Of a stretch of 61,892 bases of DNA, positions 32,318-47,066 are shown piece after piece. Numbering within the stretch: the first letter of the stretch is position 1; every line of letters begins with the position of its first letter. The position numbers and the translations under genes are program-made. The stretch comes from a virus, in the IMG/VR virus record IMGVR_UViG_3300036945_000312, positions 1 to 61,892 of that record. One strand, written 5' to 3'. Under the pieces are notes generated by a model, which had not been told where the DNA came from, made no database searches, and saw nothing but the letters and a program-made list of their open reading frames with translations.

Positions 32318-32339
32318 GCCCCAGAAGTGGGGCTTTTTT
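32318..32339 (+). terminator. Rho-independent terminator
   Basis: GCCCCA pairs with TGGGGC around GAAG, followed by six T. It closes the 31491 transcript and separates it from the promoter at 32375. Confidence 0.92.
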
Positions 32340-32374: not shown

Positions 32375-32403
32375 TTGACATACTAGACAATGTATGGTAC
32401 AAT
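32375..32403 (+). promoter_or_regulatory. Strong sigma70-type promoter
   Basis: TTGACA (32375-32380), a 17-base spacer and TACAAT (32398-32403) make a near-consensus promoter, directly after the terminator. It starts transcription of the hairpin-rich segment and the 32900 gene set. Confidence 0.88.
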
Positions 32404-32860
32404 AGACCCATCGACTTGAGGATCGCTTCAAGTTAGCAGGCACCATACACATCACGGGCCACATCATTAACAATCTGACGTAAGTCTAACCAACTAATAT
32501 TAGTTGGGAGGGCAAGCAAGCCGCTGCTGGTATACCCAGAAGCCTAAAGGTTCGCCTAGTGCGAATCTCCCTTGGCGAGTAAGCGTAGGGTACAGCCCCT
32601 GCATATGTGTGGTAACAGCACTGTGCAATGCAAACCGATACTACTTAAATGAGTGCTGCTCCTCTCGGGGAAACCCTGCATGAGCCCTTGGGACGTGGAA
32701 CCAGCATAGCTGGGATAAGCCACGCCGACAAACTCTATCGTAGTTACAAGCCAATACAAAGCATACAAAGCCAATGAATTCTGACGGGCATAACTGCCCG
32801 TGCTAGAGCGCCTAGCATATAGGGCACATCACTGTGCCTTATGTAGTGGATGCTCCCACT
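32404..32860 (+). ncRNA. Candidate structured non-coding RNA or long leader
   Basis: About 460 bases without a convincing gene follow the promoter. Helices seen by eye: 414-419/428-433; 18-base palindrome 490-507; 542-549/571-576 enclosing 551-555/561-565; 658-661/682-685 enclosing a GGG-GAAA-CCC hairpin; 694-698/720-724 enclosing 701-705/709-713; 784-790/795-801; 801-806/812-817; 821-827/834-840 (add 32000). The density and the nested, stacked shape are more than expected from a plain spacer. The limits are set by the promoter and the next palindrome. A coding explanation is poor in all frames. Confidence 0.5.
32492..32505. promoter_or_regulatory. Operator-like palindrome copy 4
   Basis: AACTAATATTAGTT, extended to an 18-bp palindrome (32490-32507). 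It lies about 90 bases downstream of the promoter, where a bound protein would act as a roadblock. Confidence 0.8.
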
Positions 32861-32864
32861 GCGT

Positions 32865-32878
32865 AACTAATATTAGTT
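32865..32878. promoter_or_regulatory. Operator-like palindrome copy 5
   Basis: AACTAATATTAGTT, extended to a perfect 22-bp palindrome at 32861-32882, the longest copy. It lies 17 bases before the start codon region of the 32900 gene, ahead of AAGGAAA. Confidence 0.85.
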
Positions 32879-32899
32879 ACGCTAACTTAAGGAAACGAT

Positions 32900-33702: not shown

Positions 33703-34758
33703 ATGCAAGTAACTCTCAACCAAGCCGCCACCCTTATCCGTACCTGCGGCACTACGAATACATTCCTCCTGCAGGGTCAGCCCGGTGTAGGCAAGTCGGC
33801 CATCCTGCGTATGCTGGCTGCAGAACTACCAGATTATCAGGCGTGCTACATTGACGTAGCTAACCTTGACCTCGGTGACTTGGGTATGCCGGTCATTGAC
33901 CGTGACCAGATGGTTACCAACTACGCACCGAATAGCAGGTTCGGTATCGGCAAGGGGCAAGATCGGCCTGTGCTGCTGATGCTGGACGAGTTGGGCAAGG
34001 GTGCCCGTCCCATTATTAATATGCTGCTGCCTGTGATTCTTGAGCGTAGGCTTGGTGACGTTGTGCTGCCAGTGGGTAGCATCGTGTTCGGTACGACTAA
34101 CCTTGCGACTGACGGGGTAGGCGACAACATACCGGCTCATGCCCACAACAGGATGACGGTGCTGGACGTAGCTAACCCTGCGGTTGACGACTGGCTTGGT
34201 TGGGCTGCTAACAATGACATTGCCCCGGAGTTGATGGCGTTTGCCCGTGACTTCCCCCAAGTGTTCGAGCGGTACGACCTGATCGACAAGGTAGAGAAGA
34301 ACCCGTACATCTTCAGCCCATTGACGGGTAATACCAAGGCGTTCTGTTCGCCTAGGTCTATGGAGAAGGCAAGCAACATCATCAAGCAACGTGCGGCCCT
34401 TGGCTCTGCGTTACTGCCCGCACTGATCGGCACACTGGGCGAGGCTGCAGCCCGTGACTTGGATGCACTGGTCAATCTGGCTGACGGTATGACTAGCTTC
34501 GTTAGCATCATCGCAGACCCCGCTAAGGCACGGTTACCTGACGGTGCGGGTGCGTACTTCCTGATGGCCTTCAGCCTTGCGGCCCGTGCCAATGCAGAGA
34601 ACCTGACGCAGATCATCACGTATGTCAATCGGTTCGAGTCGTTCGAGGCCAAGACGCTGTTCGCCACCACACTGGCAAGCAACAAGGCTAAGGTAGGCAT
34701 GGCGTGTAGCAATCGTACCTTTACGGTAATGGCCGCTGCTCTCGGTAAGTTCTTCTAA
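33703..34758 (+). CDS. MoxR-type AAA+ ATPase (351 aa)
   Basis: Walker A GQPGVGKS is at residues 25-32 and Walker B LLMLDELGKG at 91-100. The Asn of the sensor 1 loop is in GSIVFGTTNLATD, followed by an arginine-rich lid. This is the MoxR-like or dynein-related branch of AAA+ ATPases, which remodel partner proteins, often through a VWA partner. The partner lies two genes downstream at 35475. AAGGAATATC precedes the ATG. It probably acts in the cytoplasm with the VWA protein as chaperone or remodeller. Confidence 0.9.
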   Translation: MQVTLNQAATLIRTCGTTNTFLLQGQPGVGKSAILRMLAAELPDYQACYIDVANLDLGDLGMPVIDRDQMVTNYAPNSRFGIGKGQDRPVLLMLDELGKGARPIINMLLPVILERRLGDVVLPVGSIVFGTTNLATDGVGDNIPAHAHNRMTVLDVANPAVDDWLGWAANNDIAPELMAFARDFPQVFERYDLIDKVEKNPYIFSPLTGNTKAFCSPRSMEKASNIIKQRAALGSALLPALIGTLGEAAARDLDALVNLADGMTSFVSIIADPAKARLPDGAGAYFLMAFSLAARANAENLTQIITYVNRFESFEAKTLFATTLASNKAKVGMACSNRTFTVMAAALGKFF

Positions 34759-36636: not shown

Positions 36637-36897
36637 ATGAAATTCGTTATGGAAATCAACAACGTCAAGATCGTGCTGACCACTGAGCAATTGGAAGCCA
36701 TCACTACGGCACTGGATGGCTGCGAGTATCTGGAGAACAAGTACTTAGGCAACAACCTAGGGGTCAACGGGTCGAACTACTTGGAACTACTGAGCCCCGT
36801 GGTCATGCGAGACCTGCTCAAGGTAGGCGTTATGAGTGACGTAGATCACGAAGCCAAGACGTTTGTTACCAAGCAATACAACAAGGATAAGGCATGA
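36637..36897 (+). CDS. Small protein (86 aa)
   Basis: AGGAGAATGAT precedes the ATG. MKFVMEINNVKIVLTTEQLE leads a helical protein (LEAITTALDGCEYLENKYLG) with a basic end. It overlaps the next gene by four bases. The family is not recognised. Confidence 0.6.
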   Translation: MKFVMEINNVKIVLTTEQLEAITTALDGCEYLENKYLGNNLGVNGSNYLELLSPVVMRDLLKVGVMSDVDHEAKTFVTKQYNKDKA

Positions 36898-37307
36898 CAA
36901 CCGCATGGGCACACTTGCCTAACGCCGCGCACATCGACCGGGTACTGGCCTCACTGAAGGCTAACCCGAAGGTATGGGTCGCTGCTCGGACCGCTGCTTG
37001 GGGCGCTGCTCGGGGCGCTGCTCGGGACGCTGTTTGGGACGCTGCTCGGGACGCTGCTCGGGACGCTGCTCGGACCGCTGCTTGGGACGCTGCTTGGGGC
37101 GCTGCTTGGGACGCTGCTCGGGGCGCTGCTCGGGACGCTGCTTGGGGCGCTATAGCTGCGCTCATAGCATGGGACGACTGCGGGGGGTTCTTGGATATGC
37201 CACCCGATGCCGTTCGGCTAGTTGCCGCTGTTGGGAACCACTCTGCCATTCTGGTGCTACCCGCAGCTATCGTATTCAGTAAGTCATCTGTAAGTTTCGC
37301 CAACTAA
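36894..37307 (+). CDS. Alanine-rich tandem repeat protein (137 aa)
   Basis: Residues 30-85 are 14 tetrapeptide units of the type AARD, AAWD, AARG and AAWG, predicted as a long amphipathic helix with Arg/Asp and Trp faces. The N- and C-terminal parts are unique, with a hydrophobic end. It overlaps the upstream gene (ATGA), and its own TAA stop lies within the palindrome at 37302. Similar Ala-repeat proteins occur in other phages, without a known role. Confidence 0.65.
   Translation: MTTAWAHLPNAAHIDRVLASLKANPKVWVAARTAAWGAARGAARDAVWDAARDAARDAARTAAWDAAWGAAWDAARGAARDAAWGAIAALIAWDDCGGFLDMPPDAVRLVAAVGNHSAILVLPAAIVFSKSSVSFAN
36981..37148 (+). repeat. Fourteen 12-bp repeats coding AARD/AAWD units
   Basis: GCTGCTCGGGAC and close variants (with TTGG or GGGC) are repeated in frame about 14 times. 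The low divergence shows slippage or recombination in this gene. Confidence 0.85.
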
Positions 37308-45426: not shown

Positions 45427-45495
45427 AGAGACGCTTGCCATTTGGCGTCTCTCCTAGTTGGTTTTGCACGGTAGCTCCCCCTACCGTGCTTTTTT
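45427..45495 (+). terminator. Double hairpin, second with terminator T run
   Basis: AGAGACGC (45427-45434) pairs with GCGTCTCT (45445-45452). GCACGGTAG (45466-45474) pairs with CTACCGTGC (45481-45489), followed by TTTTTT. The second is a classical terminator, only 20 bases before the GTG of the helicase gene. It either ends the upstream transcript or works as an attenuator. Confidence 0.85.
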
Positions 45496-45515: not shown

Positions 45516-47066
45516 GTGCAGATATTAGAGAACCGGGCACTACAGTTTGTAACCCGCAAGGCAGACCAGATCATTGCCTTGATCCCAAAAAGTAAGATCA
45601 TCGCCCGCAAGGGTGACCAAGCCAAGATCATTGTTAACTGGGGTCATGTGGAGGCGAAGCTTCTACGCAACCTGCAGATCAAAGACGTACCGCATCCCAT
45701 AACGGGACGCTACAAGTGGCCCGGGGTGTACACCCCATTCGACCACCAACGTACTACCGCTGCGTTTCTCGCTACCCACCCACGGTGCCTAGTACTCTCT
45801 GAGGCAGGCACAGGCAAGACCAGTGCGGCTGCATGGGCTGCGGACTACCTGATGCTGCAGGGGGAAATCAAACGAGTGCTTATCATTTGCCCCGTGTCCA
45901 TCATGGATACCGCATGGCGGGCTGACTTGTTCCGTACGCTTATGCACAGAACTGTGGCGATTGCTACCGGCAGTAAAGCCAAGCGGCAGCAGCTAATCAG
46001 CGGGGACTACGAGTTCATCATCATCAACTTCGACGGGGTGAAGGTAGTACGCGAAGAGCTTGCAGCAGGTGGGTTTGATCTTGTTATTGTGGACGAGGCA
46101 ACTGCCCTAAAGACGACCACAACGGATCGTTGGAAAGCTGTGCATAGCTTGCTGAAACCTGACACCCGGCTCTGGCTTATGACCGGTACCCCTGCATCGC
46201 AGTCCCCTACGGATGCCTACGGCCTTGCCAAGTTAGTTAGCCCTAGCTCTGTTCCGAAGTTCTTCGGAGCGTTCCGCGACTTGGTTATGTACAAGGTGAC
46301 AAACTTCAAATGGTCTCCCAAGATTAGTGCCCAAGATACGGTGTTCAAAGTGCTGCAGCCAGCGATCCGGTTCACCAAGGAAGAATGCCTAGACCTTCCC
46401 GACCTGCTGTACACCACTCGGGACATACCGCTAACCGTACAGCAAATGAAGTACTACGAGGAGGTTCGCAAGTCTATGGTGGCTGTAGCTGCAGGGGCGG
46501 AGATCACTGCGGTCAACGCGGCGGGGCTGTTGAATAAACTTTTGCAAATCAGCCAAGGCGTTGCCTATACAACGGATCGGGAAGTCATTGAGTTCGATGT
46601 AAGCAACCGAGTAAACGAGTTGCTGGATGTAATCAATCAGACTACCCACAAGGTCATCGTGTTCGTGCCGTTCCGCCATGCACTAGAAATGCTGGAGCAA
46701 GCCCTTGCTAAGGAAGGCATCTTCACGGAGTCTATCCACGGGGGCGTATCTGCAGGGCAACGCTCTGAGTCCATCAAACGCTTCCAGACCGAAGAGCGCC
46801 CCAAGGTGTTACTGCTAATCCCCCAAGCTGCAGCCCACGGGCTAACCCTTACGAAAGCCGACACGGTAGTCTGGTGGGGCCCGGTCCCCTCTGCGGAACT
46901 GTATATACAAGGCAATGCCCGGGCGCACAGGGCAGGGCAAGTCAACAAGGTAACGGTCGTTCGACTGCAAGGTAGCCCCGTAGAACGCAGGGTGTACGCC
47001 ATGCTGGACGGGAAAGTTGACCTTCATCAGGGCCTAGTTGATCTGTATCGACAAGAGATAGCTTGA
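45516..47066 (+). CDS. SNF2-family / superfamily 2 helicase (516 aa)
   Basis: The start is GTG 45516, with GAAAGGAT before it. The apparent ATG at 45435 lies inside the double hairpin. Motifs: FDHQRT (Q/I-like), SEAGTGKTS (GTGKT at residues 98-102), DEAT (193-196), LMTGTPASQSP, VFVPFR and QGNARAHRAGQ. It is an ATP-dependent DNA translocase or helicase, likely for replication or recombination. It ends just at a strong promoter. Confidence 0.9.
   Translation: MQILENRALQFVTRKADQIIALIPKSKIIARKGDQAKIIVNWGHVEAKLLRNLQIKDVPHPITGRYKWPGVYTPFDHQRTTAAFLATHPRCLVLSEAGTGKTSAAAWAADYLMLQGEIKRVLIICPVSIMDTAWRADLFRTLMHRTVAIATGSKAKRQQLISGDYEFIIINFDGVKVVREELAAGGFDLVIVDEATALKTTTTDRWKAVHSLLKPDTRLWLMTGTPASQSPTDAYGLAKLVSPSSVPKFFGAFRDLVMYKVTNFKWSPKISAQDTVFKVLQPAIRFTKEECLDLPDLLYTTRDIPLTVQQMKYYEEVRKSMVAVAAGAEITAVNAAGLLNKLLQISQGVAYTTDREVIEFDVSNRVNELLDVINQTTHKVIVFVPFRHALEMLEQALAKEGIFTESIHGGVSAGQRSESIKRFQTEERPKVLLLIPQAAAHGLTLTKADTVVWWGPVPSAELYIQGNARAHRAGQVNKVTVVRLQGSPVERRVYAMLDGKVDLHQGLVDLYRQEIA

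Follow-up and report, generated by a model that had tools for sequence, protein, structure and literature searches.

A candidate new class of large phage RNA behind a boxA-type leader

What is the long untranslated segment at the head of one operon in an uncultured virus? The window (by which we mean the whole stretch of DNA that was analysed, an IMG/VR virus record of 61,892 nt) contains an untranslated, structured segment at 32404-32882, flanked on one side by a terminator and a promoter and on the other by the operon's first gene. Large phage RNAs are already known as a kind, GOLLD and ROOL being examples; to our knowledge, large structured phage RNAs are not numerous, and for none of them has the function been settled. 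The original prediction, made from the sequence alone, had described a near-consensus promoter, a strong terminator upstream of it and about 460 bases without a good gene, rich in hairpins, and had read these as either a large phage RNA of a new kind or an elaborate leader of the genes that follow. It had left the matter to folding, to a covariation test and to comparison with ROOL and GOLLD, to which it claimed no similarity, and had named a lack of compensatory changes and a conserved reading frame among the findings that would refute it.

The borders of the segment were confirmed. Promoter and terminator are both where they had been placed (Table 1), and no convincing gene was found between 32294 and 32900. 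The conserved unit extends from the transcription start, inferred from the promoter to lie at about 32410, to a last hairpin at 32845-32860 and the palindrome that follows it, and nearly coincides with the interval 32404-32860 that had been picked. The first gene after it, which encodes a 251-aa protein, begins at an ATG. The virus has distant kin in Pelagibacter phage HTVC023P and lake phage DSL-LC04, against which its terminase scores about 40%.

Table 1. Features of the RNA locus, in window coordinates (MFE, minimum free energy)
Feature	Position	Strand	Basis or remark
Intrinsic terminator that ends the upstream gene and insulates the unit	32318-32339	+	Stem GCCCCAGAAGTGGGGC, then TTTTTT
Sigma-70 promoter, TTGACA-17-TACAAT, extended -10 TG	32375-32403	+	Matches the consensus at 11 of 12 bases; equally placed in nearly all homologues
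HP1, hairpin at the transcript 5′ end, loop GAUCGC	32413-32434	+	Compensatory changes in 7 of 8 pairs, 21 leaders
HP2, hairpin with a bulged A	32439-32460	+	Forms in nearly every leader when each is folded singly; a few without
boxA position, CATCATTAACA	32462-32472	+	Window copy mismatched at 3 of 11 positions against GYTCTTTAANA
Left palindrome, CCAACTAATATTAGTTGG	32490-32507		One of 11 exact AACTAATATTAGTT copies
Body, 5′ portion: AAGCCGC(C/T)GCTG hairpin (conserved), then second hairpin GGTTCGC/GCGAATC	32508-32581	+	MFE helices; arms variable but complementary in relatives
Body core (model R1), nine helices	32582-32745	+	cmsearch 154 bits; covariation
3′ domain: hairpins 32784-32801, 32802-32816, 32817-32844 (12 bp) and 32845-32860	32784-32860	+	Fold in the window
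Right palindrome, GCGTAACTAATATTAGTTACGC	32861-32882		At the right edge of the RNA
First gene after the RNA, 251 aa	32900-33655	+	No Pfam or PHROG match; unrelated genes here in many relatives
MoxR-type AAA ATPase, conserved neighbour	33703-34758	+	Used for finding relatives

Homologues occupy the same place in many IMG/VR phage contigs, and the RNA is common to dozens of uncultured phages. Because the 251-aa protein gave no relatives, the terminase and the MoxR-type ATPase served to retrieve related contigs. When the segment was compared with these loci by BLAST, clear DNA homologues emerged, with identities between 84% and about 70%, and a motif search added others. With a covariance model built from 14 sequences (R1, whose E-values are rough), copies were detected in most contigs that have enough DNA upstream of the MoxR gene. 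There are 59 distinct core sequences, which form 47 clusters below 90% identity and 37 below 80%. Several MoxR-sharing contigs have no detectable RNA copy; in one of them (L229), a promoter, a boxA-like GTTCTTTCACAA, a palindrome and a GCAAGCCGCTG motif are all kept at the equivalent place, so that this locus looks like a diverged version. In seven loci (L097, L102, L103, L112, L115, L130 and L137), the leader part of the profile (positions 2-180) is matched separately from the remainder, and the two matches overlap in profile coordinates, a pattern that would be expected if there were a duplication of the left hairpin region or an insertion in it.

No homologue was found by BLAST among 50,697 named phages; since the covariance model was not used there, a strongly diverged copy could have been missed. 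R1 gave no match in those parts of the HTVC023P, DSL-LC04 and MinM2 genomes that were searched. Plasmids yielded no DNA homologue, only 36-base AT-rich matches (E 0.5), and sequenced prokaryote genomes yielded no copies when searched by one RNA motif or by the terminase. No report of this RNA was found in the literature.

Throughout the family the elements come in one order: a sigma-70 promoter, a 5′ hairpin, a second hairpin with a bulged A, an rrn-type boxA and a multi-branched body. In the core of the body, a helix ACUAC/GUAGU (32640-32644/32740-32744) is followed by an internal loop YUAAAUG/UAUC, which is almost invariant, and then by a helix GAGU/ACUC (32651-32654/32732-32735), which varies yet stays complementary in relatives (GGGU/ACCC, GCGG/CCGC, GUGC/GCAC). 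This helix encloses a GAAA-capped hairpin and the nested hairpin that had been singled out in the original prediction. Nearer the 3′ end, the long hairpin at 32817-32844 and the last short hairpin have equivalents in most relatives. The structure of the 3′ domain and of 32508-32581 was judged from folds or by eye, without formal counting.

Could such a fold be a chance product, a decayed region or an unrecognised gene? The region 32404-32880 folds at -163.1 kcal/mol, compared with -138.9 +/- 7.2 for shuffled sequences (z -3.4), and none of 100 shuffles is equally stable. A single-sequence z of this size is only modest evidence by itself, which leaves room for chance folding. However, compensatory changes speak directly against it. 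In a first MAFFT alignment, made before there was any model, 90% of cells pair and 24 of the 40 pairs show compensatory changes; on this same structure-free alignment the covariation score is 0.391, versus 0.055-0.079 when partners are slid. RNAalifold alone recovered nearly identical core helices. (Alignments A2 and A5 were fitted to the structure; A1 and A3 were not.) Once the alignment is fitted to the model, double changes are seen in 33 of the 40 pairs among 39 sequences. By parsimony, on a tree built from unpaired columns only in order to allow for relatedness, there were about 153 double canonical-to-canonical compensatory events, as against 6-15 in slid controls. The lack of compensatory changes that would have refuted the original prediction is thus ruled out. 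Most members, furthermore, are without a full-length open frame, and no conserved reading frame was found. Chance folding, decay or a missed gene is thus refuted by the covariation, and we regard it as scarcely credible.

The individual helices of the original prediction fared equally well: 32694-32698/32720-32724 and 32701-32705/32709-32713 are both present and covary across relatives, as does the GGG-GAAA-CCC hairpin at 32667-32676, which has the least support (pairing in 51% of A1 cells and 69% of A2 cells). The earlier observation holds and is stronger than was claimed. When the model-fitted alignment was scanned for mutual information, every one of the ten top-scoring column pairs fell within the structure. 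The next-strongest, 32699-32719, covaries without Watson-Crick pairing, A-G being swapped with G-A. The bases 32699-32700/32714-32719 make up an asymmetric internal loop near the GAAA-capped hairpin. The non-canonical covariation fits a structured internal loop, possibly a tetraloop-receptor or other tertiary motif.

The boxA-type leader, like the palindromes described below, had been overlooked in the original prediction, whose reading is otherwise supported. A TTGACA-17-TATAAT-type promoter opens nearly all members that have upstream DNA, and the HP1 loop is mostly AUCGY across the family. The published boxA consensus is GYTCTTTAANA (PMC5725501). It is matched exactly in 23 of 40 leaders and with at most one mismatch in 34 of 40, at a near-constant distance from the promoter; random 130-mers contain an exact match in 0.16% of cases and one with at most one mismatch in 0.62%. 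The same motif was confirmed in E. coli, whose rrn leader carries it 85 bases before 16S. As the site is degenerate in the window (CATCATTAACA, shared with its two closest relatives), the boxA claim rests on the family and not on the window copy. A boxC (UCUGUGUGGG) just 3′ of boxA is not conserved: the best matches have 3-6 mismatches, and 10 of 34 reach 3 mismatches, compared with 11% of random sequences. The leader is absent at the other two promoters read in the window.

This arrangement can be set beside three known antitermination systems. Like the rrn leader (boxB-boxA-boxC, acting with NusB/S10/SuhB), the phage element has a strong promoter, a hairpin, a boxA and a long untranslated structured RNA; unlike it, the phage element has two covarying hairpins in place of one boxB and no conserved boxC, its body is unrelated to rRNA, and the window's boxA is degenerate. 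The put site of phage HK022 consists of two adjacent stem-loops, spans only about 70 nt and lies near the transcription start of an early phage operon (PMC9378689). HP1 and HP2 are likewise two stem-loops within about 70 nt at an operon head, but their stems are shorter and they are followed by a boxA and a structured body of about 350 nt; there are no polymerase-binding data for them. Lambda nut sites likewise combine a boxA with a hairpin where an early phage operon begins, although the order in the new leader is hairpin(s), then boxA.

We consider it most likely that this RNA, which is absent from RNA databases, represents a new class of large phage RNA. Our preferred explanation, to which we give a probability of about 0.5, is that it is expressed in the manner of ribosomal RNA through an antitermination leader and that its body acts in trans. 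A strong host-type promoter would start the transcript, and the first approximately 65 nt, comprising the two hairpins and the boxA-like site, would be an antitermination signal that loads NusB/S10 onto the polymerase. The leader would keep Rho away, so that the polymerase could cross about 400 nt of untranslated RNA and continue into the operon. The body may fold co-transcriptionally into its multi-branched structure and work as RNA, probably after being cut free from the operon mRNA, and it would act in trans, alone or with a protein.

Some of this rests on earlier work. boxA brings in NusB/S10 and shields long untranslated transcripts from Rho (PMC4807359, PMC10250234). It is therefore reasonable that a boxA leader should precede about 350 nt of structure that is conserved but untranslated, since full transcription of this stretch would be secured in this way. 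boxA alone is enough for rrn-type antitermination (PMC10250234), so some other role has to be sought for the body, and a trans-acting RNA, alone or with a protein, is the most likely, though unproved, candidate. Comparison of sequences shows a conserved promoter, the hairpins, a family-wide boxA, a conserved and covarying body, no conserved gene linked to it and no attenuator after the RNA. Transcription, boxA activity (NusB/S10 binding and Rho resistance), release of the body and its action in trans are all inferred, there being no transcript data.

Several other explanations have to be weighed against a new trans-acting RNA. The segment could be a distant member of one of the large RNA families already described (GOLLD, ROOL, OLE, HEARO, an intron, tmRNA or RNase P RNA), which it resembles in size, complexity and phage location. 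GOLLD and ROOL are often, though not always, near tRNA genes, and they form a homo-oligomeric RNA cage. Both are several hundred nucleotides long, multi-branched, conserved through compensatory changes, carried by phages and of unknown function (PMC12286853), traits that the window RNA shares. Neither the window RNA nor any of 18 relatives, however, matched these or any other Rfam 15 family at curated thresholds, and in three members searched up to E = 10 nothing plausible appeared, the best sub-threshold matches being implausible. ARAGORN found no tRNA gene in the 61.9-kb window. The new RNA also differs from GOLLD and ROOL in heading a protein operon behind a boxA-type leader and in being unseen, as far as searched, in sequenced prokaryote genomes or named phages. 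Membership of a known family is already contradicted at the level of sequence plus structure, and we hold it to be very improbable. Control of the operon's first gene by a riboswitch, an attenuator or a translational leader would account for a long 5′ untranslated region whose final hairpin lies 20-40 bases before the start codon. Nevertheless, the first gene downstream belongs to 30 families in 44 loci (a rough count, small ORFs having been picked by rule) while the RNA stays, and the RNA is therefore not serving one gene. Furthermore, the hairpins at its 3′ end are not followed by a U-run, so that none has the form of a terminator, and the ribosome site is mostly unpaired in predicted folds. 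Control of the first gene is thus improbable, though less firmly so than a known family.

The main rival to a trans-acting RNA is a purely cis role, in which the whole element would be a leader, an RNA-based processive antitermination module (nut- or put-like) of an early operon, with no separate RNA and with a body that modifies the polymerase or stays tethered to it. We see this as a real, if lesser, possibility. The element always lies directly after the promoter and before the operon, on the same strand, and its two 5′ hairpins and boxA resemble nut and put sites (PMC9378689). In the window, a strong 9-bp intrinsic terminator (45466-45489) stands between two genes, about 25 bases before a likely GTG start at 45516; a promoter would not fit in between, and expression of the second gene thus seems to depend on read-through. 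(By its sequence motifs, this gene encodes an SNF2-type helicase.) On the other hand, a cis role leaves the conserved body unexplained, given that boxA alone suffices and that put is so short, and the downstream stretches of the other loci yielded no intrinsic terminators. The idea that many operon terminators serve as antitermination targets was accordingly dropped, with one in the window only and none downstream in relatives. Some observations also count against a trans-acting RNA: its constant place at the operon head without a terminator after it, as a cis element would also show, the three mismatches in the window boxA, the unconserved boxC, the lack of any known partner or processing site and the few MoxR-sharing relatives without a detectable copy. 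The pair of readings first proposed, an RNA in its own right or a leader, is thus supported by covariation, but there is no terminator between the RNA and the gene that follows, which leaves the choice between them undecided.

A bolder form of the trans-acting RNA is that of a phage ‘rRNA-like’ RNA gene, which would hijack the host's ribosomal antitermination/RNA-folding complex through boxA and then form the core of an RNA or RNA-protein particle early in infection; this we regard as speculative and rather doubtful. The survey from which the boxA consensus comes states that non-coding RNAs were not considered (PMC5725501), and a phage structured RNA of the kind proposed would extend boxA antitermination beyond rRNA, mRNA leaders and lambdoid phages. 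Given the deep alignment, some 150 compensatory events, a defined 5′ end with an antitermination signal and the compact size, its biochemistry, structure and expression are directly testable.

The RNA is bordered by copies of a perfect palindrome, which are not needed for the conclusion about the RNA. The palindrome AACTAATATTAGTT occurs in 11 exact copies in the window (0 by chance), mostly between genes or just before gene starts (29466, 30815, 31759, 32492, 32865, 33664, 34757, 35444, 36587, 37302 and 47566), one of them at each edge of the RNA. A repeated palindrome of its own was found in 38 of 41 RNA-carrying loci, with 17 different half-sites and a common CTAA/TTAG theme; a copy lies at the left edge of the RNA in 32 of these 38 loci and at the right edge in 20. 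By analogy with stoperators and immunity repressors, this suggests a DNA operator whose specificity may have diverged between phages. A closing helix formed by pairing of the two edge palindromes, as drawn in the MFE fold, was rejected in favour of self-hairpins in the window, because each palindrome there extends into its own hairpin (CC..GG, GCGT..ACGC). In L202 (2546-2704) the phage-specific palindrome is inside an RNA hairpin loop, and in L022 it is inside HP2.

Two further observations concern other parts of the window. A repetitive ORF at 36894-37307, rich in Ala, Arg, Trp and Asp (AARDAAWDAAWG), is similar to PHROG 8332 (function unknown), and other frames are also open over much of its length. 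At the contig end (23-511), a long repeat reads as poly Gly-Val, possibly as an effect of assembly or of a terminal repeat.
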